Shown here: positions 2,078 through 26,231 of the stretch, one piece after another
Layout: each line of letters begins with the position of its first letter
Position numbering within the stretch: the first letter of the stretch is position 1
From: a virus
Strand: one strand, 5' to 3'
DNA length: 28,995 bases
Virus record (IMG/VR): IMGVR_UViG_3300044718_000063
Location: 1-28,995 of that record
Notes under the pieces: model-generated
Told to the model about the DNA's origin: nothing
Seen by the model: only the letters and a program-made list of their open reading frames with translations
Database searches by the model: none
Program-made: the position numbers and the translations under genes

Positions 2078-2392
2078 TTACTGGACTTGCTTAAAAGCAT
2101 CCCTGATGAGGCGCAGACGTTCTTTACCAAACTCTGCACCCGTGGATGTTTCCCACCATCCTGACGGTTTATCAGTCTCTTGCCGGTCTATTCCGTCCAA
2201 TATTTGCTCAACCTCAGACTGGACCTGACCGACGAATTGGCCGTAATCGTCGTCGGCTTTTTTCTGGCACCAGCCCGGACGCTCCGGTGCCTCGCTAAGA
2301 TAAAGCGCGTACGCTGCAATCCAAGCAAGCTTCTGTTCCAAGGTGTGGTCCTCGGTTAGGAACGTGCTCCAATAATATTGTCCGATCATCAT
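2078..2392 (-). CDS. Hypothetical 104-residue accessory protein
   Basis: I do not recognise this protein. It starts at the first of two adjacent ATGs (MMIGQYYWSTFLTED); the open frame extends further upstream, but that part crosses a strong hairpin and the start of the extension overlaps the acb2-like gene. The protein is rich in aromatic residues (YYW, GWW, W at several places) and mostly helical, with an acidic middle (KKADDDYGQFVGQVQSEVE) and a basic C-terminus. It has no signal peptide or membrane segment. It lies between the Acb2-like gene and the three tandem hairpins, so it is probably part of the same accessory cassette inserted between the tail-tube and tail-assembly genes. Confidence 0.6.
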   Translation of the reverse strand: MMIGQYYWSTFLTEDHTLEQKLAWIAAYALYLSEAPERPGWCQKKADDDYGQFVGQVQSEVEQILDGIDRQETDKPSGWWETSTGAEFGKERLRLIRDAFKQVQ

Positions 2393-2421
2393 GGCTTTAT
2401 CTTTCTTACCACATCTATGGA

Positions 2422-2456
2422 CCGCAGGGCAGAGCTTTTTTTTCTCTACCCTGCGG
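2422..2456 (-). other. Strong hairpin just after the Acb2-like gene
   Basis: CCGCAGGG (2422-2429) and CCCTGCGG (2449-2456) are perfect inverted copies. They extend inwards through one mismatch to AGAG/CTCT, leaving a 9-base loop that is A-rich in the transcript. The hairpin begins ten bases after the stop of the Acb2-like gene. No run of U follows in the direction of transcription, so it may protect the 3' end of the upstream message or limit read-through rather than terminate. Confidence 0.6.
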
Positions 2457-2465
2457 CACTGCGCG

Positions 2466-2672
2466 CTAGAACCGTCCTTTGAGAGCAACCGACGCGTTGG
2501 CTGTCATCACGGCTTCGCGAATCTTGCGAATCGCGGCCGATTGGTCAGCTGATCGCGGAGTGTTCTCCAGGATGGTTTTGGCAAACTGTTTGGCTGCGGC
2601 TCTGATCGCTTCATACTTCGCGACTTGGTCAGCCTCAACCGGGTGATAACTAAAAAGGTCGTCCAGATCCAT
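2466..2672 (-). CDS. acb2: Acb2-family anti-CBASS cyclic-nucleotide sponge
   Basis: This 68-residue protein closely follows the pattern I know for the Acb2 family (the short helical-hairpin proteins that include T4 Vs.4): an aromatic-Tyr-His-Pro start (SYHP, residues 8-11), Gln then a Tyr-containing helix (KYEAIRAAAKQFAKTI), a PRSADQS turn, and a second helix ending in EAVMTANASVAL. Known Acb2 proteins form small oligomers in the cytoplasm that bind cyclic di- and trinucleotide signals, so the CBASS effector is not activated. The start has a strong SD (AAGGAG, 5 bases from ATG). The gene lies 12 bases after the tail-tube gene and would be made late, unlike many early anti-defence genes. The call is from sequence pattern only; cyclic-nucleotide specificity cannot be read. 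Confidence 0.82.
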   Translation of the reverse strand: MDLDDLFSYHPVEADQVAKYEAIRAAAKQFAKTILENTPRSADQSAAIRKIREAVMTANASVALKGRF

Positions 2673-2684
2673 GATTCTCCTTGT

Positions 2685-4097
2685 TTAAGCGCCCACTCCG
2701 TAGGCAGCCTGGTTATTGATCACGATGGCCTGAAACACTTCCTGCGGTCCGGGCTTGAGCACGGCGTTGTCGCCGGCATTCATCTGCCAGATCTGCTCAC
2801 GTCCGCTCTGCCCGATCTGGAATGTGTCCAGCATGGTGTAAGGAAACTGCAGGGTCATCTGTTGCGACGCGCCGGAGTTGGTGATGATCTGTAGTTCCTT
2901 CTGCGTGTCGTTCTCTGAAATCGTGCGCATATCGTCGGCACTGGTCGCTTTCACGTTGACCATCACGTTGGCGCGCTGTTTCAGCACCTTCATGAAGGTT
3001 GCCCAGAAGCCGCTGCCTGGAGCGAGATTGGGGACCATCTCGGCGGTGATATGGACCTGCCAGTCTGTCACGCGTTCCTTGATGCTGCTGAGCGCAGTGG
3101 TTGCCGTAGGCAGCGCCGCGCCCACAACAAAGCCCGTGCCCGGCTCGGTGAAGACGGCAGCAGCGGCGAATGGTCCACCAGCCTGTTTTGTTTCCGTCGC
3201 TGTGATAATCGCGGCATATACGAAAACACCTGTAACTCCGGGCGGCAGCGCCGCTGGCATCGTCGCTTTCGATACGCTGTTCGCCGGGACCAGAATTGAG
3301 ATCTCCTGGCTGCCGATGGTTTCACCAGCAGCGTTCGTATATGTGAATCTATAGAAGGCAGTGCGCTGCGCCTGCGCGCCGAGTACGCTTGTCGAAAGCA
3401 CGATCTGGAAGCGCGGATCGGTGAGGTCCGGCGCGGAAGGCCCAATTTTGATATCGGTGTCCGAACCAAAAAGGAATAGCGGCGCACTCAATGGCGGGAA
3501 CGTGACCGCTCCGTCCACCTTCTTACCGCTGCCCACCATCTTGAACTGCACCTGCAGCGGACCAGACTCTTTTCCGGAGATGACCAGGTCAAGAATCGCC
3601 ATGTCAGGCAGCTGGAAGATCACGTCGTTCGTTTCCTGGCACAGCAACGAGGTCACCGGCATCTGGTTGGTCGCCTGAAGGAACTTCATCGTGTGCACGA
3701 AGGGCCCAGCACCCGTGACGGTCTCATTGCCCAGGATGAAGAAAAGCACCCAGCCGGCGAGGAACGCGTCCAGGTCCATCGTGCCGTCAAAACTGCTCGC
3801 TTCCGCAATGCGCAGCTTCGTCGCAGCCCACTGATGGCCTTTGTTGGCCATTTGCTCATCAGTGTAATGGGACGGAGTATGGACCGCGTTGTAATTGCCG
3901 GCATTGCGCGGCCGCTGCGTGTAGCTCGCTGCAGCGACCGGCGTGAGAAAGTTGTTTTGCTTGTTGGGCGCAATGACCAGGTTGCGGATGTCGAGCACGT
4001 CCTGCGGCTCGAAGGCAAACCGCAGCACAATGCAGCGCAGCATCCAGTTGATAAAACGAATGCCCATATTAAAGAAGCCGTAACTTAACCTGATCAA
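2685..4097 (-). CDS. Major tail (tube) protein with inserted Ig/FN3-like domain
   Basis: This 470-residue protein is the only large structural gene between the head-completion genes and the tail-assembly genes, the expected place of a siphovirus tail tube. No sheath gene accompanies it. Residues ~40-235 and ~340-465 are beta-rich with small residues and fit a tube protein. Residues ~245-335 (FYRFTYTNAAGET, then VTGVFVYAAI) look like an Ig/FN3-type beta sandwich inserted in the middle, as in some decorated tails. The chosen start is TTG, preceded by AAGGAGGTGAGCGC and overlapping the upstream TGA; an ATG lies ten codons further in. The assignment is from context and composition. Confidence 0.65.
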   Translation of the reverse strand: MIRLSYGFFNMGIRFINWMLRCIVLRFAFEPQDVLDIRNLVIAPNKQNNFLTPVAAASYTQRPRNAGNYNAVHTPSHYTDEQMANKGHQWAATKLRIAEASSFDGTMDLDAFLAGWVLFFILGNETVTGAGPFVHTMKFLQATNQMPVTSLLCQETNDVIFQLPDMAILDLVISGKESGPLQVQFKMVGSGKKVDGAVTFPPLSAPLFLFGSDTDIKIGPSAPDLTDPRFQIVLSTSVLGAQAQRTAFYRFTYTNAAGETIGSQEISILVPANSVSKATMPAALPPGVTGVFVYAAIITATETKQAGGPFAAAAVFTEPGTGFVVGAALPTATTALSSIKERVTDWQVHITAEMVPNLAPGSGFWATFMKVLKQRANVMVNVKATSADDMRTISENDTQKELQIITNSGASQQMTLQFPYTMLDTFQIGQSGREQIWQMNAGDNAVLKPGPQEVFQAIVINNQAAYGVGA

Positions 4098-4411
4098 GCG
4101 CTCACCTCCTTGGTTTCCACCATGATGCCTTGCGGCGTAGCTGTAGCGTCGATGCCGAGATCCCGCAGCCCTTCAGCAGCCTGCTCTGGTGTCTCTTCTG
4201 ACGCGTCGGGCACGATCTCAAACAGAGCATGTCCATTGAAGTGCTCATTCTTGAGCACGCGCTCCCACTCGAACGCGCGCGTTACCATCTTCACTTCGCC
4301 AGGCTCAAAGACAAACGAGTGATTGCCGGCATGAACCTGAATGCGCGCGCCTGCAGCGCGCTCCTTGCCTAACTCTGTGAGCCTCACGTTGACAAAATCT
4401 TCTCTTGCCAT
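4094..4411 (-). CDS. Hypothetical head-tail region protein
   Basis: This 105-residue protein starts MAREDFVNVRL with GGGAGGAAGT directly upstream; the longer open frame to 4543 lacks such a site and overlaps the upstream gene. The sequence has a beta-rich first half (IQVHAGNHSFVFEPGEVKMV) and an acidic, probably flexible C-terminal part (DASEETPEQAAEG). It sits between a probable tail-terminator-type gene and the tail-tube gene and shares the overlap TTGA with the latter. This position suggests a small connector or tail component, but I recognise no specific family. Confidence 0.6.
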   Translation of the reverse strand: MAREDFVNVRLTELGKERAAGARIQVHAGNHSFVFEPGEVKMVTRAFEWERVLKNEHFNGHALFEIVPDASEETPEQAAEGLRDLGIDATATPQGIMVETKEVSA

Positions 4412-4422
4412 ACTTCCTCCCG

Positions 4423-4911
4423 TTACACCGATGTCGTATTGAATGGCCCATCCTCGGCCACAAAAAGCAGCTCCGCGTAATTGCAGAGAATTCCTTTGAA
4501 CATCACGAACGTGACCAGTCGCGCCGTCATGGGATCGCACCATCTAGCCTGGTGAACCTGCTGCGCGTCCGTCAATTTGCGATTGTTCTTAAACGCCGTG
4601 CGCATCGCTTCCACGTCGTCCTGAAAACTATCCTCTGTGACCGACGAAGCATCTGAGGCAAGGACCTTCGCGCTGCGGTACCACTTCAACAGAATGGTGT
4701 GACGGTCGCGATTGTCATTCGGGCCGCGATCCACGGACGCAGTGTTCTCCCGCGTGATCATGATCGTATTCAGTCGCCCCGCCGCATCCTGAAAGAGAGC
4801 AACGATGTCCGCGTCGTCAGTGCTCCACACCAGGTGTTTGTAGACCTTGCCGGAATTCGCCACGGCTGCAGCGATGACGGCCGTCTGATCGATGATTTTG
4901 CGGAGTGACAT
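4423..4911 (-). CDS. Putative tail terminator / head-tail joining protein
   Basis: This 162-residue protein starts at an ATG that overlaps the upstream stop by one base (TAATG). It contains an alpha-helical N-terminus (MSLRKIIDQTAVIAAAVANSGK), a middle with DDADIVALFQDAAGRLNTIMITRE, and a hydrophobic C-terminal part (MFKGILCNYAELLFVAEDG). Its size and place, after the gp10-like gene and two genes before the tail tube, match tail-terminator or neck proteins in siphophages. No diagnostic motif was seen, so the name rests on gene order. Confidence 0.5.
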   Translation of the reverse strand: MSLRKIIDQTAVIAAAVANSGKVYKHLVWSTDDADIVALFQDAAGRLNTIMITRENTASVDRGPNDNRDRHTILLKWYRSAKVLASDASSVTEDSFQDDVEAMRTAFKNNRKLTDAQQVHQARWCDPMTARLVTFVMFKGILCNYAELLFVAEDGPFNTTSV

Positions 4912-5456
4912 TAGTTCACGCCTCCGAAGCCTGCCAGAAGGTCAAAGCGCTGCCTACCCGCTTGCCACTCTTCAATGGCGACGGCGATCTCGCGTTCCAT
5001 GATTCCCGGCGCTTCCGCCTGCAGCTGCGCGAACGCCTGGTCAAACATGTGCTGTCCCTGCGTGCCGCGTTTCGCAATCGATCTGGAGATCGCAAAGGCG
5101 ACTGATAGCGCCTCTTTCTCATTCTCGATGTGCAGCTTCTTTTGCACCCACAGCAGGAGCGCCGATGGAGGCGGAAAGTGCGGGCGCGTGCCCAGTTCAA
5201 CAGGACCCGCATACATGTCAGCCGGAGGATGCACGCCGATGATCTCCTCCATGCGCGGTCCGTCCTGGTGAAACTCCGCGAAGACGCCGCCGAAAAGATT
5301 TCCCGTCGCGCCCACAGGTGTGTGGTCCTGCACCAGCGGAATACCACGCAGGCCGATCTTTTCCAATCCAATCGGGATGCCAGCCATCATCGCGGCGTGC
5401 AGCTCGGCTGGAGCTTCCAGCAGGCCGGTGATGGTGAGCTTTAATTCATTCGCCAT
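4911..5456 (-). CDS. HK97 gp10-like head-tail connector / tail completion protein
   Basis: This 181-residue protein starts MANELKLTITGLL at an ATG that overlaps the TGA of the upstream gene by one base; a longer frame to 5522 is open but would run through that gene. The sequence fits the HK97 gp10-like family: a helical first part ending in DHTPVGATGNLFGGVF (target residues of the 'D.(P)..TG.L' type), then a VHPPADMYAGPVELGTR region and FPPPSALLLWV. These proteins join head and tail in long-tailed phages. Placement among connector genes supports this. Confidence 0.68.
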   Translation of the reverse strand: MANELKLTITGLLEAPAELHAAMMAGIPIGLEKIGLRGIPLVQDHTPVGATGNLFGGVFAEFHQDGPRMEEIIGVHPPADMYAGPVELGTRPHFPPPSALLLWVQKKLHIENEKEALSVAFAISRSIAKRGTQGQHMFDQAFAQLQAEAPGIMEREIAVAIEEWQAGRQRFDLLAGFGGVN

Positions 5457-5647
5457 CAGCTGATCCCTATCACGTAGACAGAAAGGCCGATGAGCGCGAG
5501 CGCCATCACACCCAGCATCCACAACATCGCATTTGCCGTACGCACGTCCTGGTCAAACGACCATTTGTAAAATGCGTCCTGAGCAGCGGGCGGAAGCATC
5601 CGAACCCGCTGGAGGACTCTTTCTCGCTGTTTACGTGTCAGTGCCAT
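5456..5647 (-). CDS. Small single-span membrane protein
   Basis: This 63-residue protein has a basic N-terminal half (TRKQRERVLQRVRML) and one C-terminal membrane segment (about residues 40-61, MLWMLGVMALALIGLSVYVI). Both ends overlap neighbours by one base, so translation is coupled. A membrane protein within a connector-gene cluster is unusual, and I do not know its role. It may be a small accessory gene or help localise assembly. Confidence that it is a gene comes from the tight coupling at both ends. Confidence 0.65.
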   Translation of the reverse strand: MALTRKQRERVLQRVRMLPPAAQDAFYKWSFDQDVRTANAMLWMLGVMALALIGLSVYVIGIS

Positions 5648-6384
5648 CAGCGCGGCCTCCGGTGCGTGAGACGGTCCACGCCAGATCCCTGAGTGAGGTT
5701 CATATCGCCGATTGCTATCGCGCCGGCTGTGGGGCTGCCGCCCGACGATCCGCTCCCGCTCTCCTCAATCCCGATGTGGTCGTCATAGCGTTTTTTCAAT
5801 TGCTTGCCCAGCGACGCGTATTCCTGAGACTTGCTACGGTAGTTCACCGCGTCCGCCTGGATGCTGGAATCATTGGTGCGCGCGAATGCCGCCGAGAGTT
5901 TGTCGCAGCAGAAGGAAGCAGCCAGATCGCACACGGCTTCAAAGTCGGCGTCGGGAACCGTTGTTGCGACTGGGCTTTCTCCTGACGTGCCGGGGATGTG
6001 ACGCACGGTCCAGGTCACGCGAAGAGTGTCACTGGCCTGCGGAACCATGCTGGTGAGAGCGATCTTCAATCCCGCTGGTGTGCGATAGAGCAGCCAGTCT
6101 TCACCTTCAAGAAACGTGGGTGGCAGGTTGCCAACCGGGAATTCGATGCAGCGCACGATGGAGAATCCATCTTCGAAAGTTTCAGGAGGCGTGGCGGGTC
6201 CCGTGGGAAGAGCCAACAATGCATTGTTCGCGCCCACCAGGTCCGTCACCATCTCGCGTGGACGATCCTTGGAATAGCGCTTCACCGCCTGCGTGATCGC
6301 ATCGTCTCGATCCGACAGGCTGGTTTTGTTGGCGCTGTCCTGGATGCGCGATAATACTCCGGTTTCAAAGTCGGCGAGGTTCAT
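5647..6384 (-). CDS. Putative head-tail adaptor protein
   Basis: This 245-residue protein starts MNLADFETGVLSRIQD. Its first half looks like a helical adaptor (DRDDAITQAVKRYSKDRPRE), followed by a beta section containing LPTGPATPPETFEDGFS and PGTSGE, then a helical region (ADFEAVCDLAASFCCDKLSAAFA). The C-terminus is low-complexity and Gly/Ser-rich (ESGSGSSGGSPTAGA). It precedes the gp10-like gene, where gp6/gp15-type head completion proteins are found in long-tailed phages. The role is inferred from position and fold impression. Confidence 0.6.
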   Translation of the reverse strand: MNLADFETGVLSRIQDSANKTSLSDRDDAITQAVKRYSKDRPREMVTDLVGANNALLALPTGPATPPETFEDGFSIVRCIEFPVGNLPPTFLEGEDWLLYRTPAGLKIALTSMVPQASDTLRVTWTVRHIPGTSGESPVATTVPDADFEAVCDLAASFCCDKLSAAFARTNDSSIQADAVNYRSKSQEYASLGKQLKKRYDDHIGIEESGSGSSGGSPTAGAIAIGDMNLTQGSGVDRLTHRRPR

Positions 6385-7681: not shown

Positions 7682-10195
7682 TTATGGCACCACCGATTTG
7701 CCAGCTCCACGGAAGTCCAGGATCGCCCCGCCGAAGGGGAACTTGGGCTTGTACTGGATCTGGTCGTTGGTGAACTGCGTGCCCTGCGTCTGCATGTCTG
7801 CCAGGTAGATCTGCGGAGTCGAGATGCCATCAATGTATCCGACTTCGAAGATTGGCACATCAGCAACGTCCACGCCGTAGTACCAGTCGTTCGTATCAGT
7901 CAGCAGTTCATTGACGATGATCCCCGGAGGCGCCTGCTTGCCTGTGCCCGGAGGTCCAAATCGCTGATAGAAAGGATTGGGCTCAAAGATGCCAGAGCCA
8001 GGGTTGTAGTTCTGGCTGTTGTTGGCCTTCCACGCCTGAGCAGCGAGATCCACGGGAACCATGACCCATGAGATCCGACGCGCGAGTCGGTTCCCGGAGT
8101 CCTTCTCCGTCTGTTTCATCTGGATCGCTTCCTGCGCGATCAAGGCGTCGATGCTAAAAGGAGACACTGCCAGGTTGTTGTGTCCGACGTTAAACCAGGC
8201 CACGCCGTCAGGCACATAATTGGGATTATTTATAAAGAAGTTGGTGACGAACGTTTTCAGCGTGTGCCGCCCGGAGCGCGCCAGACGCATGGGAAACTGC
8301 TTGATCTTTCCGAGATCGTCGGCGCGGATCGTTTCCTCCGAGATGGTCAGCAATCCGCCGCGCTTCTGCGGCGCGTAGGTGACCTTCTCGTCTGTGGGTT
8401 TCGTCAACTCCAGATAGGGTGCGCCTTCCGCGACGATTGGGAGATCGGACATATAGCCTTCACGGATACGGCTCTGCGTCCGGTAATCGGTCAATGCGGG
8501 ACCTTCCGTGATGAGCTGATCAAGACCGCTCATTCCCACTTCGCTGTAGTCCTGAATAAGCCGCTTAAACATGGAATCGAGCAAGATGTTCGGAAAATCC
8601 GTTGTGGCCACGGCCTCCGTCACCTTTGTGAATCCTCCCTCGCCATTGCGCCCGAAGCTGAAGTCACGGTCCCCCGTAATAAGTATGTAGGCTTCCTTGG
8701 GGCCGCGAAATGCCTTGATGCCCGCTTCGCCCGCGAGCAGCGTCACTTCTTTCCCAGCTTTCCCCATAACCTCGACGTATGCCTTCTGCCCAGACTCAGT
8801 TACTCCGAGCATCCGGTCCATCGCGAGCTGCGCTTTGTCGCGCGATTCCAGTCCCACTTCTGTGCGGCCTCCGCCGATGCGTCCGATGTTGGAGTAAGCC
8901 GCAAACGCGTCGCGGATCTGCTTGATCTTGTTATCAACCGCAGATTCAGCCACGATCAGCTGTTCGCCTTTGTCGTCAACAAAAGCCTGGCGCACCAACT
9001 GCATTGCCGGCGCGGGAAGTTTGGACGCGACCAATTTGGTTTCCACCAGGTTGGCGCTCTTTATCTTCTTCGCTTCATCCAGCGCGGCGCGGGATTCAGT
9101 GACGAGCGCGGTCATCTCTGTGTGAGTTGTCACCGTCTGCGAGGATTTCTCCGAAGCTTCAGTCACGGCCTCACTTACCGTCAACATGAAATCCGAGAGC
9201 TGCTCGTCTTTCACAGCTGCGAATTCCGTAGTGAGTGCAGTGGCGCGGCCGGCATCGTGCTTCCGGAGCGATTCAATCAACTTCTTAATGCGTTCCTTCA
9301 TCATTGCTCCTGTTTTTCTGGCCGCGCTGTCTGCGCTGCCGCTTTCGCTGGTTTTCACCAGCGATTCTTTTTGCATCTGCGAGATCTCGGCCAGGACCGC
9401 CTTCGATGCCGCATACTGCAGAAACTTTCCTCCCGCGCCAGCTTCTGCGCAGAGGTCAACACTGATCAATTTGCCCAGCCTCTTTGAGACCAGGCAGTCT
9501 TTCCCTTCGACCTTGCCGGCCTCGAACTGGATGTAGCCGAGCATCGAGACGCCGAAAAGGTCCAGCTTGCCGGAAGCTCTGGCTGCATAAAGCTTGGCCT
9601 GCAGCGCCGTTTCGTTTTTCAAAAGATGAACGTCGCCAACGGCTGCTTCACCGACGAGTTTGCCGTTCTCCATCCAGCCTGCGACGCGATTCGCATCTTC
9701 CGCGCCCGTGCCGTTCACCGGATGCATACGCCCAAACTTTGCGCCATTGACGGCGGCAGCGACTTCTGCCACGACCGCAGGCGTGAAGTAATGCGGCACG
9801 TTCTTCTGACCGGCCACAGCACCGTGTGCCCAGCCTGTCTGCATGACTTGCACCGGATAGACCCAATCATCCACGGCAACGCCGGCTTCAGCGGCCATGA
9901 ATATCCCGGACTGAGAGACAGGTACAAAAGCTGTCTCCACTTCCTGCGGATCTCCCAGCGTCGCTTCGCCCTGGTCATCAACCGAGTAAGAAAGCTGGAA
10001 TAGTTTGCCGCCCGGACCACGCGCGATCACGTAGTCCGGGAAAGCTTCAACCAAGATGTAAAGCGGCGAGCCGAACGCGTCGGTGCCGAACTTCTCCTGC
10101 AACTCTTCCTGAAGTTCACACTCCAGATCGTCGAAGGACATGTCTGCCTCCCTGGTGAGCAGGACGCGCGTGCCGTTTTTCTTTTTCGTTTTCAT
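7682..10195 (-). CDS. Prohead protease - scaffold - major capsid fusion
   Basis: One uninterrupted frame encodes 837 residues. Residues ~95-260 look like a prohead serine protease: GRMHPVNG (His158), RVAGWMENGKLVGEA, and FGVSML (Ser217), arranged as in S78/Mu gpI-type proteases. Residues ~265-450 are charged and helical (ERIKKLIESLRKH, AVTEASEKSSQ), as expected of a scaffold. From about 465 to the end the sequence fits a Mu gpT/HK97-type capsid protein (DLPIVAEGAPYLELT, GGLLTISEETIRADDLG). In Mu, protease/scaffold and capsid come from separate genes, so this is a fusion. The ATG has GAAAGGCTGAG upstream. A second start with strong SD lies at residues 298-299. Confidence 0.85.
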   Translation of the reverse strand: MKTKKKNGTRVLLTREADMSFDDLECELQEELQEKFGTDAFGSPLYILVEAFPDYVIARGPGGKLFQLSYSVDDQGEATLGDPQEVETAFVPVSQSGIFMAAEAGVAVDDWVYPVQVMQTGWAHGAVAGQKNVPHYFTPAVVAEVAAAVNGAKFGRMHPVNGTGAEDANRVAGWMENGKLVGEAAVGDVHLLKNETALQAKLYAARASGKLDLFGVSMLGYIQFEAGKVEGKDCLVSKRLGKLISVDLCAEAGAGGKFLQYAASKAVLAEISQMQKESLVKTSESGSADSAARKTGAMMKERIKKLIESLRKHDAGRATALTTEFAAVKDEQLSDFMLTVSEAVTEASEKSSQTVTTHTEMTALVTESRAALDEAKKIKSANLVETKLVASKLPAPAMQLVRQAFVDDKGEQLIVAESAVDNKIKQIRDAFAAYSNIGRIGGGRTEVGLESRDKAQLAMDRMLGVTESGQKAYVEVMGKAGKEVTLLAGEAGIKAFRGPKEAYILITGDRDFSFGRNGEGGFTKVTEAVATTDFPNILLDSMFKRLIQDYSEVGMSGLDQLITEGPALTDYRTQSRIREGYMSDLPIVAEGAPYLELTKPTDEKVTYAPQKRGGLLTISEETIRADDLGKIKQFPMRLARSGRHTLKTFVTNFFINNPNYVPDGVAWFNVGHNNLAVSPFSIDALIAQEAIQMKQTEKDSGNRLARRISWVMVPVDLAAQAWKANNSQNYNPGSGIFEPNPFYQRFGPPGTGKQAPPGIIVNELLTDTNDWYYGVDVADVPIFEVGYIDGISTPQIYLADMQTQGTQFTNDQIQYKPKFPFGGAILDFRGAGKSVVP
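9299..9312 (-). promoter_or_regulatory. Internal ribosome binding site and start codons within the fusion gene
   Basis: On the transcribed strand CAGGAGCA is followed directly by ATG ATG AAG, in the frame of the fusion gene at residues 298-299. AGGAG lies five bases from the second ATG. Initiation here would give a scaffold-capsid protein of about 539 residues lacking the protease, similar in principle to the internal scaffold start in lambda (Nu3) and Mu (Z). The site is seen; its use is inferred. Confidence 0.6.
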
Positions 10196-21392: not shown

Positions 21393-22136
21393 TCAGCTCG
21401 GCATGCCGATCCACCACAACACGCGTCCCACAACTGCCCAGCCCGTTTCGTTCTCGTCGTCTCCGAATGAGAGCACGGCCGGCTGGTGACGTTTGCTGGT
21501 ATATTGCGGAAGCAACATCTCCTGCTTGCCCACCAGTCGCAGCCATTTGATCGTGACTCCGCCTTCGGGATCGCGCGCTGCAACCATCTGCCCGTGTAAT
21601 CGGGAGTGGTCCTTCTGAGCTGTGTCCACGGCGACAATGTAGCCATCCTCCAGGAGCGGACTCATGGAGTCGCCCTGCACCTTGATGCAGACCATCTCCT
21701 CCGGGTGAGGACAGAGCGATCCGGGAAGTGGGAGATAGTCTTCTATCTCTTCCTCGTTAACTTGTCTCGGAGTTCCCGTTGCTGCGGGGTCTTTTAGAAG
21801 TGGTAACTCTACGGCTTCGCTGGTGAGCTTGCCGAACTTTACGCGACGAGTGCCCGCCGCAGGCTTTCTCTTTCCTATCATTGGTTCGAACCCTGGTACC
21901 TGAAATGATCCCGAAATATCTGAGGCGCGCTTTAAGAGGAGAGGCATTTCCGGCGCATCAGGCCAAATCTTAGCCATACGAAAATACATCTCCGGCTTAG
22001 GCTCCTTCTTTCCGTTGAGCCAATTGGACACCGAACCCTGAGTAACGTTCATCTTGGCGGCAAGGGTTTGCTGCGTAAGCCTCTTACCCTTCATTAGTTT
22101 GCCGATGTGGACCGCCCACTCTGGCAGAGATGACAC
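21393..22136 (-). CDS. LexA/CI-type phage repressor (HTH + S24 peptidase)
   Basis: This 247-residue protein has an XRE-type helix-turn-helix at about residues 20-42 (LTQQTLAAKMNVTQGSVSNW) and a C-terminal S24 domain with GDSMSP (Ser157) and VTIKWL (Lys197), the catalytic pair of LexA/CI autoproteolysis. Thus the repressor can probably be cut after DNA damage, unlike the Mu repressor. I chose a GTG with GAGGAG upstream; the open frame to 22442 would cross the switch region and antisense the Cro-like gene. It should keep the early promoter silent in lysogens and drive the membrane-protein pair that follows. Confidence 0.85.
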   Translation of the reverse strand: MSSLPEWAVHIGKLMKGKRLTQQTLAAKMNVTQGSVSNWLNGKKEPKPEMYFRMAKIWPDAPEMPLLLKRASDISGSFQVPGFEPMIGKRKPAAGTRRVKFGKLTSEAVELPLLKDPAATGTPRQVNEEEIEDYLPLPGSLCPHPEEMVCIKVQGDSMSPLLEDGYIVAVDTAQKDHSRLHGQMVAARDPEGGVTIKWLRLVGKQEMLLPQYTSKRHQPAVLSFGDDENETGWAVVGRVLWWIGMPS

Positions 22137-22156
22137 CCCAGGCTCCTCTTTTCCCC

Positions 22157-22185
22157 TTGACTCGGTCTTATTACTGCGGTTATAT
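22157..22185 (+). promoter_or_regulatory. Early promoter, near sigma-70 consensus
   Basis: TTGACT (22157-22162), a 17-base spacer, then TTATAT (22180-22185). It points towards the Cro-like gene and transposase operon. The -10 box lies inside the inverted repeat described next, so a bound repressor would block it. Confidence 0.72.
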
Positions 22186-22196
22186 TTCTGCGGTAA
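22168..22196 (-). promoter_or_regulatory. Repressor promoter, overlapping the early promoter
   Basis: On the - strand TTACCG (22196-22191), a 17-base spacer and TAATAA (22173-22168) form a moderate promoter facing the repressor gene. It overlaps the early promoter head-on, so the two would interfere with each other, giving a bistable switch. Confidence 0.5.
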
Positions 22197-22199
22197 TAA
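22168..22199. promoter_or_regulatory. Operator: inverted repeat between repressor and early genes
   Basis: TTATTAC (22168-22174) and GTAATAA (22193-22199) are exact inverted copies around 18 bases. Inside are two direct copies of CTGCGGT (22174-22180 and 22188-22194), each followed by an A/T triplet. The repeat covers the early -10 box and the repressor -35/-10 region, so it is the obvious shared operator for repressor and Cro-like protein. Confidence 0.68.
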
Positions 22200-22226
22200 C
22201 TGGGCCGGAATTTGGCCCGCCGAATT

Positions 22227-22436
22227 ATGGCCAACAAAGATACCACGACCGACAAGGACCTCCGAAGGATCGCCCGGCAGACCGGAATCTTCAGCCGCGT
22301 CGCTAGGCAGCTGGGAGTTGATTCTTCCCACGTCCGTCGTGTCGCCCTGGGAGAGCGCAAATCGGCGAAGGTGGCGGCCGCCATTCGGAGAGAACTCAGA
22401 AGGATCGACAAAGAACTCTCGGGCGCGGCAGCGTGA
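22227..22436 (+). CDS. Cro/Ner-like small HTH regulator
   Basis: This small basic protein (69 residues from the ATG; a TTG five codons upstream is also possible) contains a helix-turn-helix, GIFSRVARQLGVDSSHVRRVA, followed by a basic helix (AAAIRRELRRIDKELSG). It is the first gene of the early operon and faces the repressor across a 90-base operator region, the position of Cro in lambda and Ner in Mu. It probably turns down both promoters once transposition starts. The sequence is not a close Ner match. No strong SD is seen; a GGGCC/GGCCC repeat lies in the leader. Confidence 0.68.
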   Translation: MANKDTTTDKDLRRIARQTGIFSRVARQLGVDSSHVRRVALGERKSAKVAAAIRRELRRIDKELSGAAA

Positions 22437-22480
22437 TTGCATGGCCCGGAGATTCTCAGGCCCAACAGTAAAAAAAGTCC

Positions 22481-22924: not shown

Positions 22925-23223
22925 TTAAGAAGATCATCCTGCCAGCAGCCTCTCCTTATCTAACCGTGCATCCGCAAACTCCGGCCGCGCGCGAAGCCGC
23001 TGCGGAAGTATTTCGCCATCTGATGGGAGCGGCTGGACGCAAGTGGAATTCGTTGAACAGCACGGAACGGTATGAGCTGCTGGAACAAGAGATGTATCCG
23101 TGCGACGCGCTTTCCAAATATTCTCTCCAGCGCTGGCAGCAGCTTCCACGCGGCACAAAGGTTCTAGTCATCGCTCTGCTGGCGCGTAAAGCGAAGGCCA
23201 ACAAAGCGGAGGCTCAGCAATGA
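22921..23223 (+). CDS. Hypothetical early protein (100 residues)
   Basis: Begins MIKKIILPAASPYLTV, overlaps the previous stop and the transposase start by four bases each. Helical (AREAAAEVFRHLMGAAGRKW), ending in a basic Lys/Ala-rich tail (ARKAKANKAEAQQ). I recognise no family. Tight coupling directly in front of the transposase suggests a helper role in transposition or its regulation, but nothing in the sequence shows this. Confidence 0.6.
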   Translation: MIKKIILPAASPYLTVHPQTPAAREAAAEVFRHLMGAAGRKWNSLNSTERYELLEQEMYPCDALSKYSLQRWQQLPRGTKVLVIALLARKAKANKAEAQQ

Positions 23224-25247
23224 CGCACTCCGTCTGGATCTCGCGCAGGGAAGTGGAGCAGCTCACCGGCTGGACCGAGCGCACGATCTTTCGCAAACAG
23301 CAGAGCGAAGAAATCAAAGCCCGTCCGACAAAAGAGATTGGACGCAATGGCAAGCCGGTTCTGGAGTATTCTGCCGCGTCTCTTCCCGCCGCTGCGCAGC
23401 TCAAGCTGATGGAACTGAAGATGGCGGCAAGCGCGCTGGTTCCGATCAAGCAGTCCATCACCGCTGTTGCCACATTGCCAGAGCCAAAGAGCGAACGCGT
23501 GGTCATGGCTATGGACGCGTTGGATGAAGAGTCGCGAGCGCTGGCCACACAGAGGCTGAAGGTCATCGCGCCGATGATCGACTTCGTTAATCGCACCAAT
23601 GGTCACAAACCGCTATTCCGCGCCGCAAGCGGTGAAGAGTTCACCACATTGAGCGCCATCGTTCAGCATCTTTCGACCGTCACGAAGTTCGCGGAGAGAA
23701 GCATCTGGGATTGGTGGAAGCGTTTCACCAAAGACGGTCCGGGCGCTCTCGCGGACCGCGAGCGTTCCGATGCTGGGACATCCCGCGTCTTCCGCGATCA
23801 TCCTGAGGCAGCGGCTTTCTGCCGCAACAAATATCTCAATGAGCGTCTGAGCGTGGCGCTGGTCCACCGCGCCCTGCTGCGTGAGTGGCATCGTTTCAGC
23901 AGCGCGAAGGCTCCAGACTACAAAACGCTGCGCGTCTACCTCGCGCGTGAGATTGCGCCGCTGGTCAAGATGATCGCGCGCGATGGCGACAAGGTTTACA
24001 AAGAGCAGGCCGCGCCCTACATCATCCGCGACATCTCGAAGATCCGCGTGAACCAGTACTGGATCTCCGATCACATGATCCACGACGTGTGGGTTCGCAA
24101 TGACAGGCGGGCGGACAACGGCCATCTGGTCTTTCCAGAACTGGCGGAGAACGAAGCGCTGCGTCCCTGGCTCACCTGCATCGTTGACATGCGTTCGCGC
24201 CGCGTGGTTGCTCCCACCTGGTGCGCGACGCCCAGCTCGCGCAGCATAGGCTCGGCGCTGTTGCTGGGCATGCGTCTCTTTGGCCGGCCAGAAGTTTTCT
24301 ACATCGACAACGGCAAGGATTACAACCGCCTTTCTGACGACCAGACCGGCGTGCTCATGCGGCTGGGCATTCAATCGCAACATTGTCTGCCGAAACATCC
24401 GCAGTCAAAGCAGATTGAGAGTTTCTTTGCCGGGCTGCATAAGCGCTTCGATGTTCTCTGGCGTCCCTTCTATTGCGGCACATCAGCCGCAACTCGCCCC
24501 GACGATTGCGCGGCTGTCTTGAACGATCACAAAAAGGCGATGAAGACTGGCGCGCCTTCGCCCCTTCGGGCAGCGTCTGAATTCATCCAGGGCGCAGCGT
24601 GCTGGCTCGATGAGTTCAATGAGACACCGCACAGAGGCCAGGGCATGAGCGGACGTTGTCCTGCCGACGTTTACGATGCCGAGCTTCCGCCAGCGCGCCG
24701 CAGCCCGGTCAATCCCGCAGACGTGGCGCAGCTCTTCTGGGAACGCGATACACGCGTGGTGTGCGAAGGCGGCGGAGTACGTCTGGATAAATTCCGCTTC
24801 GAGCCTGCGGACGCCGATTCATTTGCCGCGCTGATGCCTCTCGTTGGAGAGGGACCAGATGGCACGCCGAACAAAGTGATCATCGCGCGTGATCCAAGAA
24901 ACTTGAGTGAAGCCATCGCCCTGACCAATGAGCGTGAGCCAAAGTATCTTGGTCTATTGCGCTCGCAGGAGATGGCGGTCCACGGCGAAACGGACCGCGA
25001 CATGATCCGCCTGCGCATGCGTAAAGAAGGCGGCGTCCGCACGGCCGTAAAACAACTCCTTGCCGCCGAGGCGCGCCAGCGCGCGATTGCCGGCGATGTC
25101 ACCGAACTTGATGCACTCAGACGCCGCGCTGCCGCCAGCTCGGTTCAACCCAACATACACGCCTTGTCTGTCCCCAAGGCGGTCGGCGAGCGTGCGCTTC
25201 CGCGCATGCACGTCGATGACATTGCGGACAGCTACCAAGAGGAATAG
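23220..25247 (+). CDS. MuA-type DDE transposase
   Basis: This 675-residue protein begins with the winged-helix DNA-binding domain of Mu transposases (WISRREVEQLTGWTERTIF, residues ~5-65). The middle domain is the RNase H-like core with acidic triad Asp284 (WISDHM), Asp363 (FYIDNGKDY) and Glu400 (KQIESFFAGL). C-terminal to it lies the beta-barrel Mu C-domain and a basic helical tail that would contact the MuB-like partner. The enzyme cuts phage ends and joins them to target DNA for integration and replicative transposition. Length agrees with MuA (663). The gene overlaps its upstream neighbour (ATGA) and the ATPase follows three bases after its stop. Confidence 0.93.
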   Translation: MTHSVWISRREVEQLTGWTERTIFRKQQSEEIKARPTKEIGRNGKPVLEYSAASLPAAAQLKLMELKMAASALVPIKQSITAVATLPEPKSERVVMAMDALDEESRALATQRLKVIAPMIDFVNRTNGHKPLFRAASGEEFTTLSAIVQHLSTVTKFAERSIWDWWKRFTKDGPGALADRERSDAGTSRVFRDHPEAAAFCRNKYLNERLSVALVHRALLREWHRFSSAKAPDYKTLRVYLAREIAPLVKMIARDGDKVYKEQAAPYIIRDISKIRVNQYWISDHMIHDVWVRNDRRADNGHLVFPELAENEALRPWLTCIVDMRSRRVVAPTWCATPSSRSIGSALLLGMRLFGRPEVFYIDNGKDYNRLSDDQTGVLMRLGIQSQHCLPKHPQSKQIESFFAGLHKRFDVLWRPFYCGTSAATRPDDCAAVLNDHKKAMKTGAPSPLRAASEFIQGAACWLDEFNETPHRGQGMSGRCPADVYDAELPPARRSPVNPADVAQLFWERDTRVVCEGGGVRLDKFRFEPADADSFAALMPLVGEGPDGTPNKVIIARDPRNLSEAIALTNEREPKYLGLLRSQEMAVHGETDRDMIRLRMRKEGGVRTAVKQLLAAEARQRAIAGDVTELDALRRRAAASSVQPNIHALSVPKAVGERALPRMHVDDIADSYQEE

Positions 25248-25250
25248 CCA

Positions 25251-26231
25251 ATGCCTTTAACTCGTCAACAGAAAACAGACCTTCTTGTGGTCACGGCCAC
25301 GCGCCGGCGTGAAGTGATTCGCCGCGTGAAGCATTACATGGCCGTCACCGGGCTGAACACTTCCGATCTTGCTTCGCGCATCGGGTACGCGCGTCCCACG
25401 CTCAATCTCTTTTTAAATGATCGCTACCACCACGTTTCCGGCAACGACGCCGGCATCTGCGCCGCGCTGGTCGATTACATGGACCGCAATCCCGTGGAAC
25501 AGCCGACGCAGGCGCAGGGCTCGCTCTATGAGACGAGGAACGTCGAGCTGATTCGTCACTGCTTCATTCGCGCGCTGCACCAGCGCTGCGCTTATTACTT
25601 TCGCGGCGCGCCTGGCTGCCAGAAGACCTTCGTGCTGGAACATCTGATTGCGGAAGTCAACCGCGAGGAAGTCATTAAAGAAACACCAGATCGCCGGGCC
25701 TTCCTCATCCGCTGCCGCATCGGAATCAAGCCCTGCGACTTGCTCAAGCGGATCGCCATGGTGGTTGGCTCTCTTGCTGCCGGGAATACAGACCGGATCA
25801 TCAATAACCTGCGGCATGAGCTGCGCAAGGGCAAGGTGCTCCTGGTATTTGACGAGGCGCAGTTCCTCAGCATCGAGTGCCTGGAAACGCTGCGCGAGCT
25901 GCTCGACATCGGGCTCGTCGGTTTGTTGTTCGCCGGATCACATCAGCTGGAAGACATCTTTGATCGCCTGGATATGGGACAGTGGCGCTCGCGCATCCGC
26001 AAGGGCGAAGGATTGCCCGGCCTCGCCCTGGACGAGGCACAGGGCATCGTGAAGAGCGAGCTGCCAAAGATCTCCGCCAGCTCCATGGCGGACATGATCG
26101 CGAAATCCTCCGAAGTTGATTACTACCGTGGCGAGAAGCGCAAATACATCTCCGCTCGATATCTCTTCTGGGCCATCGACGAAGTGAAGCTGCGGAAGCA
26201 GGAAGCCGCGACGCCGGGCGGTGTGCAATGA
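25251..26231 (+). CDS. MuB-type AAA+ transposition target-capture ATPase
   Basis: This 326-residue protein has an N-terminal helix-turn-helix (LNTSDLASRIGYARPTLNLF, residues ~35-55), as in MuB, then an AAA+ domain with Walker A GAPGCQKT (119-126) and Walker B VLLVFDE (196-202). MuB-like proteins form filaments on target DNA, bring it to the transposase and give target immunity, so a phage does not insert into itself. It follows the transposase with three bases between them. The next gene overlaps by four bases. Confidence 0.9.
   Translation: MPLTRQQKTDLLVVTATRRREVIRRVKHYMAVTGLNTSDLASRIGYARPTLNLFLNDRYHHVSGNDAGICAALVDYMDRNPVEQPTQAQGSLYETRNVELIRHCFIRALHQRCAYYFRGAPGCQKTFVLEHLIAEVNREEVIKETPDRRAFLIRCRIGIKPCDLLKRIAMVVGSLAAGNTDRIINNLRHELRKGKVLLVFDEAQFLSIECLETLRELLDIGLVGLLFAGSHQLEDIFDRLDMGQWRSRIRKGEGLPGLALDEAQGIVKSELPKISASSMADMIAKSSEVDYYRGEKRKYISARYLFWAIDEVKLRKQEAATPGGVQ

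Follow-up and report, generated by a model that had tools for sequence, protein, structure and literature searches.

In some phages, protease, scaffold and capsid protein are encoded by one tripartite gene. If a protease sat on each of the capsid subunits made from it, the prohead would be crowded with hundreds of proteases. How do phages with such a gene avoid this? No printed explanation was found in the open-access literature. We analyzed a gene of this kind in a virus record of 28,995 bases, which was examined at its full length (hereafter, the window). The original prediction for this gene had placed an internal start codon at residues 298-299, from which a shorter scaffold-capsid protein could be made beside the full fusion.

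It had also implied that the fusion itself was new. This was wrong, since protease-scaffold-capsid genes are known from Gifsy-2, MD8 (gp5) and the curated families NF045540 and NF045541. The Gifsy-2 gene was reportedly called a "tripartite capsid gene" by Effantin et al. in 2010. According to the MD8 paper, a single gene seems to encode protease, scaffold and capsid; as far as the text was searched, the terms "internal", "start codon" and "Shine" are absent (PMC8508860).

Organization of the Gene and Its Surroundings

The features of the gene are as follows.

7682..10195, minus strand: full-length protease-scaffold-capsid gene (837 aa, ATG start, stop included)
9899..10195, minus strand: residues 1-99, N-terminal region ahead of the protease core (some relatives have an extra insertion)
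9410..9898, minus strand: protease domain, residues 100-262, predicted T4 gp21/herpesvirus protease fold
9722..9724, minus strand: His158, proposed catalytic residue (GRMHPVNG)
9545..9547, minus strand: Ser217, proposed nucleophile (FGVSML)
9455..9457, minus strand: Asp247, proposed third residue of the triad
9307..9311, minus strand: internal Shine-Dalgarno (SD) sequence AGGAG, conserved
9299..9301, minus strand: ATG299, likely internal start codon
8858..9301, minus strand: putative scaffold domain from residue 299 to about residue 446, all helices in the AlphaFold model being of this region or close to it
7685..8857, minus strand: capsid domain, residues about 447-837, predicted HK97 fold (Pfam, Foldseek and VIA-align)
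7682..9301, minus strand: predicted second product, scaffold-capsid (539 aa, 59.1 kDa)

The coordinates first proposed for the 837-residue gene were exact, and its strand had to be corrected: it is a minus-strand frame (10195 to 7682), and the plus-strand reading of the interval contains stops. Upstream, profile matches were found to the small and large subunits of terminase, to a portal of the SPP1 type and to a Mu F-like head protein. The fusion gene comes after the portal and Mu F-like genes, with one short frame between. This is where a head protease and a capsid protein are expected. Towards the other end of the window, a weak match to a Mu-type transposase (23220-25247, plus strand) is followed by an AAA ATPase (25251-26231, plus strand), and an S24-type repressor lies at 21393-22442 (minus strand); the virus is probably a transposable phage. 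Rfam and tRNA scans of the 28,995-base window gave no match.

A sequencing error that hides a stop between protease and capsid had been named as the finding that would overturn the fusion. Nothing in the window points to such an error, and the other full-length homologues examined have the same open frame, so that this explanation was excluded with hardly any doubt left. The sole broken frame among the homologues belongs to one duplicate pair of loci (L082 and L083), in which a frameshift within the scaffold separates the protease frame from the capsid frame (2374-3576 and 3393-4964 in L083). The shift may be programmed, or it may reflect an error or the decay of the gene.

Predicted Folds of the Three Parts

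Pfam recognizes the capsid part only (PF25209, Phage_capsid_4; residues 527-831, E 5.2e-30), with a score of 106 bits against a gathering cut-off of 27. PHROG 29592, to which no function is assigned, covers nearly the full length of the 837-aa protein. The AlphaFold model of the whole protein, built with 43 family members, has a mean pLDDT of 77. In the model, a beta-rich domain is followed by a low-confidence linker (residues 252-264 and 281-295), helices at 290-432 and an HK97 fold. For the capsid part, the VIA-align rows span residues 461-837, and Foldseek returns HK97 and other phage capsids.

The protease domain was also modeled alone (residues 100-262, 50 sequences), and the pLDDT was 92.5. 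Among solved structures, the closest is gp21, the head protease of T4 (5jbl_B; Z 9.6, rmsd 3.8, 133 of 164 residues aligned), and herpesvirus proteases rank next (Z 5 to 7.7). Foldseek matched the model to the gp21 fold with an E value of 4.4e-4 and a TM score of just 0.42. At E <= 1, no match was found with a profile of the protease domain searched against PDB sequences, and none to CLP_protease in the Pfam search of the 837-aa protein.

Since T4 gp21 has an H-S-D triad (PMC5694885), we propose His158, Ser217 and Asp247 as the catalytic triad of the putative protease. The histidine and the serine are at the residues given in the original prediction, which had missed the aspartate. Among the 50 sequences compared, Ser217 and Asp247 are invariant (50/50 each) and His158 is present in 44; the remaining six carry a histidine a few residues further on. 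The scaffold role of the helical domain is suggested by its position and its helical make-up, and its end was set from capsid-only relatives that begin near residue 450. Thus, on these models, one open frame encodes a gp21/herpesvirus-type protease, a putative scaffold made up of helices and a capsid protein with the HK97 fold, as expected of a tripartite gene. The proposed order of the domains, protease, scaffold and capsid, is strongly supported by structure prediction and comparative sequence.

Several relatives differ in layout. The capsid-only genes at L014/L015 (same contigs as L075/L076) and L092 encode about 380-400 aa from near window residue 450 onward. No protease or scaffold gene adjoins them; these parts may be elsewhere or missing. 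In L092, from an Acidobacteria MAG, transposase-like frames were seen by eye upstream on the other strand. Four loci (L003, L006, L007 and L011) have about 70-90 extra residues after the first residues, which are absent from the window gene and the other relatives. In L094 (Nocardioides MAG), the open frame at 3263-6340, of uncertain start, has a peptidoglycan-binding domain (PF01471) ahead of its protease.

Candidate Internal Start in the Window Gene

Residues 295-299 are encoded by ACA GGA GCA ATG ATG, with ATG298 at 9304 and ATG299 at 9301. The stretch AGGAGCA therefore stands directly before the two ATG codons, exactly as reported earlier. The spacing from AGGAG is 2 nt for ATG298 and 5 nt for ATG299, and the anti-SD energies are -3.4 and -6.6 kcal/mol, respectively. 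ATG298 was rejected because of its spacing, its weaker energy and its lack of conservation, and ATG299 is likely to be the internal start. The ATG of the full-length frame has a weak SD (-3.2 kcal/mol).

By its score, the ATG299 site ranks 6th of the 48 in-frame ATG and GTG codons of the window gene, and five score better. For the window gene alone, the site is thus unexceptional; judged from the sequences, it exceeds chance solely through its conservation. Two other candidates were discarded. A start at M19, behind GGGAGG, is strong in the window gene, and most relatives in the first alignment have Leu or Ile there; M1 is invariant in alignment A1. M459, at the scaffold/capsid boundary, is conserved in 45 of 63 genes and is not preceded by an SD (mean -2.6 kcal/mol; 5/45 at -5.4; z +2.2 in the column test described below).

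Conservation of the Junction Start Among Relatives

Relatives were collected as 14 loci from a first scan, then 94 relatives, of which 80 were kept, and three MAG loci (two from Acidobacteria). For the comparison of the junction, these 83 loci and the window were reduced to 67 genes by removing 17 duplicates; L016, which is identical to the window gene (100% identity), was retained. A start within four residues of the M299 column is present in 61 of the 67. The other six are a truncated gene (L066), two capsid-only genes (L075 and L092), a frameshifted and truncated gene (L082), L081, in which the start is displaced (M220, -7.9), and L094, in which the scaffold Met has no SD (-2.2). Leaving out L066, L075, L082 and L092 gave a set of 63 genes.

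At the junction, the best start attains an anti-SD energy of -5.4 kcal/mol or lower in all 63 of these fusions, the 14 distant ones among them. Stretches of the same length from the same genes do as well as the junction in 7.8% of cases on average. Among in-frame starts of 54 representatives, the mean fractional rank of the junction start is 0.054 (0.5 expected), and it ranks first in just 20 of the 54.

M299 is invariant in alignment A1, and an SD of at most -5.4 precedes it in 48 of the 48 sequences with a start in this column. At the other four conserved start columns, the corresponding counts are 5/45, 0/50, 7/39 and 1/50. The columns were also tested by random synonymous recoding with each gene's own codons. 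The M299 column gave a z of -5.9 and the other four columns -0.0 to +2.2, and per-sequence synonymous nulls for the window family gave a combined p of 1e-4; the sequences are related, so that z and p are inflated and have comparative meaning only, and the other start columns, which share this relatedness, serve as controls.

The codons point in the same direction. GGA codes for the Gly of the junction Gly-Ala pair in 34 of 35 distinct contexts (5.4 expected). The junction peptide varies (TGA, EGA, QGA, EEE, QKEE, QGDDA and EDQ), and a stretch resembling AGGAG followed by ATG or GTG still recurs. In L073, AGGAGC is kept in another codon frame and codes for Arg-Ser rather than Gly-Ala. An SD core, mostly at 5 to 10 nt, was found in 56 of 56 distinct contexts, 54 with ATG and two with GTG; both of the non-ATG junction starts are GTG. 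On this comparison, the internal start site is conserved at the DNA level in the window family, which strongly supports the start proposed at residues 298-299.

The Junction in the Known Fusion Families

Two curated families describe fused protease/capsid proteins: NF045540 (ClpP-type; Gifsy-2, MD8 gp5, Fels-1 and mEp460) and NF045541 ("prohead protease/major capsid protein fusion"; S1, RcKemmy and LPPA33). The window protein reaches 112.9 bits against NF045540 (cut-off 475) and 118.5 bits against NF045541 (cut-off 525), below the cut-off in both cases and through its capsid part only. Members of NF045540 resemble the window gene in having protease, scaffold and HK97-fold capsid in one frame. 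However, their protease is ClpP-like, whereas the window protease has no ClpP match and its model resembles T4 gp21. NF045541 has the same layout as the window gene, and weak similarity to Peptidase_S78 (E <= 0.01) was found in three of five phages checked (PY223, RcKemmy and MinM1).

ClpP-type family: The set comprised 61 of 80 loci, after near-duplicates had been left out by eye. The junction Met is invariant in the 61 genes, the junction start reaches -5.4 in 57 of them, and an ATG comes after the SD, mostly at 5-10 nt, in 40 of 40 distinct contexts. The first G of AGGA, which occupies the third base of a Glu, Gln or Lys codon, is G in 46 of 46 contexts (22.6 expected). The column test gave a z of -5.1 for the junction and -7.6 for the annotated N-terminal start of MD8-type proteins, the positive control. 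The per-sequence synonymous null, a weak test overall, was not significant in this family (p 0.11). Raw SD energy was rejected as the sole test here. A Met inside ClpP (column 226) has an SD-like stretch upstream in 57 of 58 sequences, and this stretch is forced by a protein motif; synonymous recoding separates it (z -0.1) from the junction. In Gifsy-2, GAGGAG stands ahead of M221 at the junction (-8.8). M186 of Gifsy-2 (-8.7) was discarded as a rival start: the corresponding family column (265, matched by motif) has no codon bias (z +0.5).

NF045541-type family: The set of 80 loci and five phages was reduced to 83 by leaving out a duplicate (L230), a broken frame (L268) and one without usable data. 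The junction start reaches -5.4 or lower in 74 and not in the other nine, and the best junction start is stronger than the recoded ones (z -3.2). Three exceptions (L221, L233 and L242) have a low GC content (37-44%), and SDs are mostly missing from their neighbouring genes too. An A/T-rich stretch precedes the junction ATG of L221 and may serve the same purpose in hosts in which SDs are not used.

Taken at the sequence level, a junction internal start is common to both curated families, whose proteases differ.

Split Genes and Exchange of the Protease

In the Faecalibacterium phage Epona (L106, 1282-3418), the protease gene is separate: it ends with a stop, and AGGAGG and the ATG of a scaffold-capsid gene follow. 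By sequence comparison, the predicted short product of the window gene is thus a gene of its own in Epona. The annotations of the Epona genes, "major head and protease protein" for the protease and "head maturation protease" for the capsid, were probably carried over from fused relatives. In the Methanoculleus virus Blf4 (L101, 855-1949), protease and scaffold share one gene with AGGAG-ATG at M198, and the capsid gene is separate. This is a layout like lambda C/Nu3 in an archaeal virus, and the protease residues resemble those of the window protease.

When ClpP-type proteins were compared with NF045541-type proteins by BLAST, similarity started at least seven residues past the junction on the ClpP side in 30 of 30 pairs; on the NF045541 side, a few pairs were already similar ahead of the junction, by at most 26 residues. 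The alignments place an exchange of the protease between the two families near the internal start.

Two readings of the junction do without a second product. In the first, only the full fusion is made, as a polyprotein cut by the protease after assembly, and the internal SD and ATG are a relic that was left when ancestral genes fused. Such a polyprotein is plausible, and modules that are kept apart in other phages, such as Epona, are indeed joined in the fusion. A relic would be expected to decay, yet the site persists at 26-34% identity, in linker peptides that share little else, and codon choice is biased toward keeping it. In addition, in a rough estimate with assumed values (T=7, 415 subunits, interior radius 19-22 nm), 415 copies of the 31.6-kDa protease part plus the scaffold would fill 54-84% of the interior, as against 23-36% if 60 subunits carry the protease. 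We regard this first reading as improbable.

In the second, the SD does not initiate translation; ribosomes pause at it, which gives the protease time to fold ahead of scaffold synthesis. SD-like stretches within genes have been proposed to slow ribosomes. Pausing requires no start codon, and a start codon follows the SD in 56/56 contexts of the window family and 40/40 of the ClpP-type family, a count driven in part by the search, which located sites by start codon or column. Moreover, the same place is a true gene start in Epona. A mere pause site thus seems very improbable.

Proposed Mechanism

With the anatomy of the gene, its predicted folds and the DNA-level conservation of the start site in hand, we consider it probable that two in-frame starts yield the full fusion and a scaffold-capsid protein, with the ratio of initiations setting the dose of protease. 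The upstream ATG, with its weak SD, would give the 91-kDa protease-scaffold-capsid fusion, and ATG299 behind AGGAG the 59-kDa scaffold-capsid protein. Both products would carry the same scaffold and capsid parts, and for this reason we infer that they co-assemble into one prohead. Most of its subunits would be protease-free, and a minority would bring the protease inside. After assembly, the protease would cut off itself and the scaffold. That both proteins are made, in a ratio in which the protease-free form dominates, is thus a prediction of the mechanism, as are their co-assembly and cleavage.

The short product could also be made for a purpose other than dosage, for example to initiate assembly, or so that the two forms occupy different places in the shell. 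The ratio is not fixed by anything in the sequence, and the SD strengths of the two starts vary between phages. Some ClpP-type phages have their stronger SD at the annotated start of the full-length protein (MD8 -9.3, mEp043 -11.6), and therefore the ratio cannot be read from SD strength; it was not used in this way, as the upstream starts given in annotations are not dependable and argue in both directions. On the other hand, T4, in which the genes are separate, has far fewer protease than capsid copies (about 100 of gp21 and 960 of gp23; PMC5694885). Thus, a lower dose of protease is the simplest reason for a short product, and a purpose other than dosage appears unlikely.

Relation to Known Systems

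Nested genes with an in-frame internal start at the protease/scaffold junction are known as lambda C/Nu3, Mu I/Z and herpesvirus UL26/UL26.5. Their nested product is the scaffold only, protease-free and with the same C-terminus, and the capsid protein is encoded separately. The window gene is similar in that an in-frame SD and start codon stand at the protease/scaffold junction. It differs in that no stop separates scaffold and capsid, and the predicted nested product carries the capsid protein instead of being the scaffold alone. In this respect, the predicted short product has the same layout as HK97 gp5, in which the scaffold (delta domain) is fused to the capsid protein. However, the HK97 protease gp4 is a separate gene, whereas the window protease is an N-terminal extension of the same frame.

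In the open-access literature, outside of which most subscription papers lie, no description of an internal start in such fusions was found. From the comparison of sequences, the new part is an internal start that is conserved in the window family and in both known fusion families. The junction start is probably general to the protease-scaffold-capsid fusions of tailed phages, and would have persisted, or arisen anew, in combination with two or more protease folds that are unrelated, among them the ClpP-like and the gp21/herpesvirus-like fold. Genes described as single protease/major capsid fusions would then be dual-product genes, which follow the nested logic of lambda, Mu and herpesviruses and use the initiation ratio to control the dose. 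If true, the conserved internal start answers the crowding of the prohead and predicts a second major product from genes that appear to encode a single fusion. It would also connect genes of the tripartite kind with the nested scaffold genes known from lambda, Mu and the herpesviruses.
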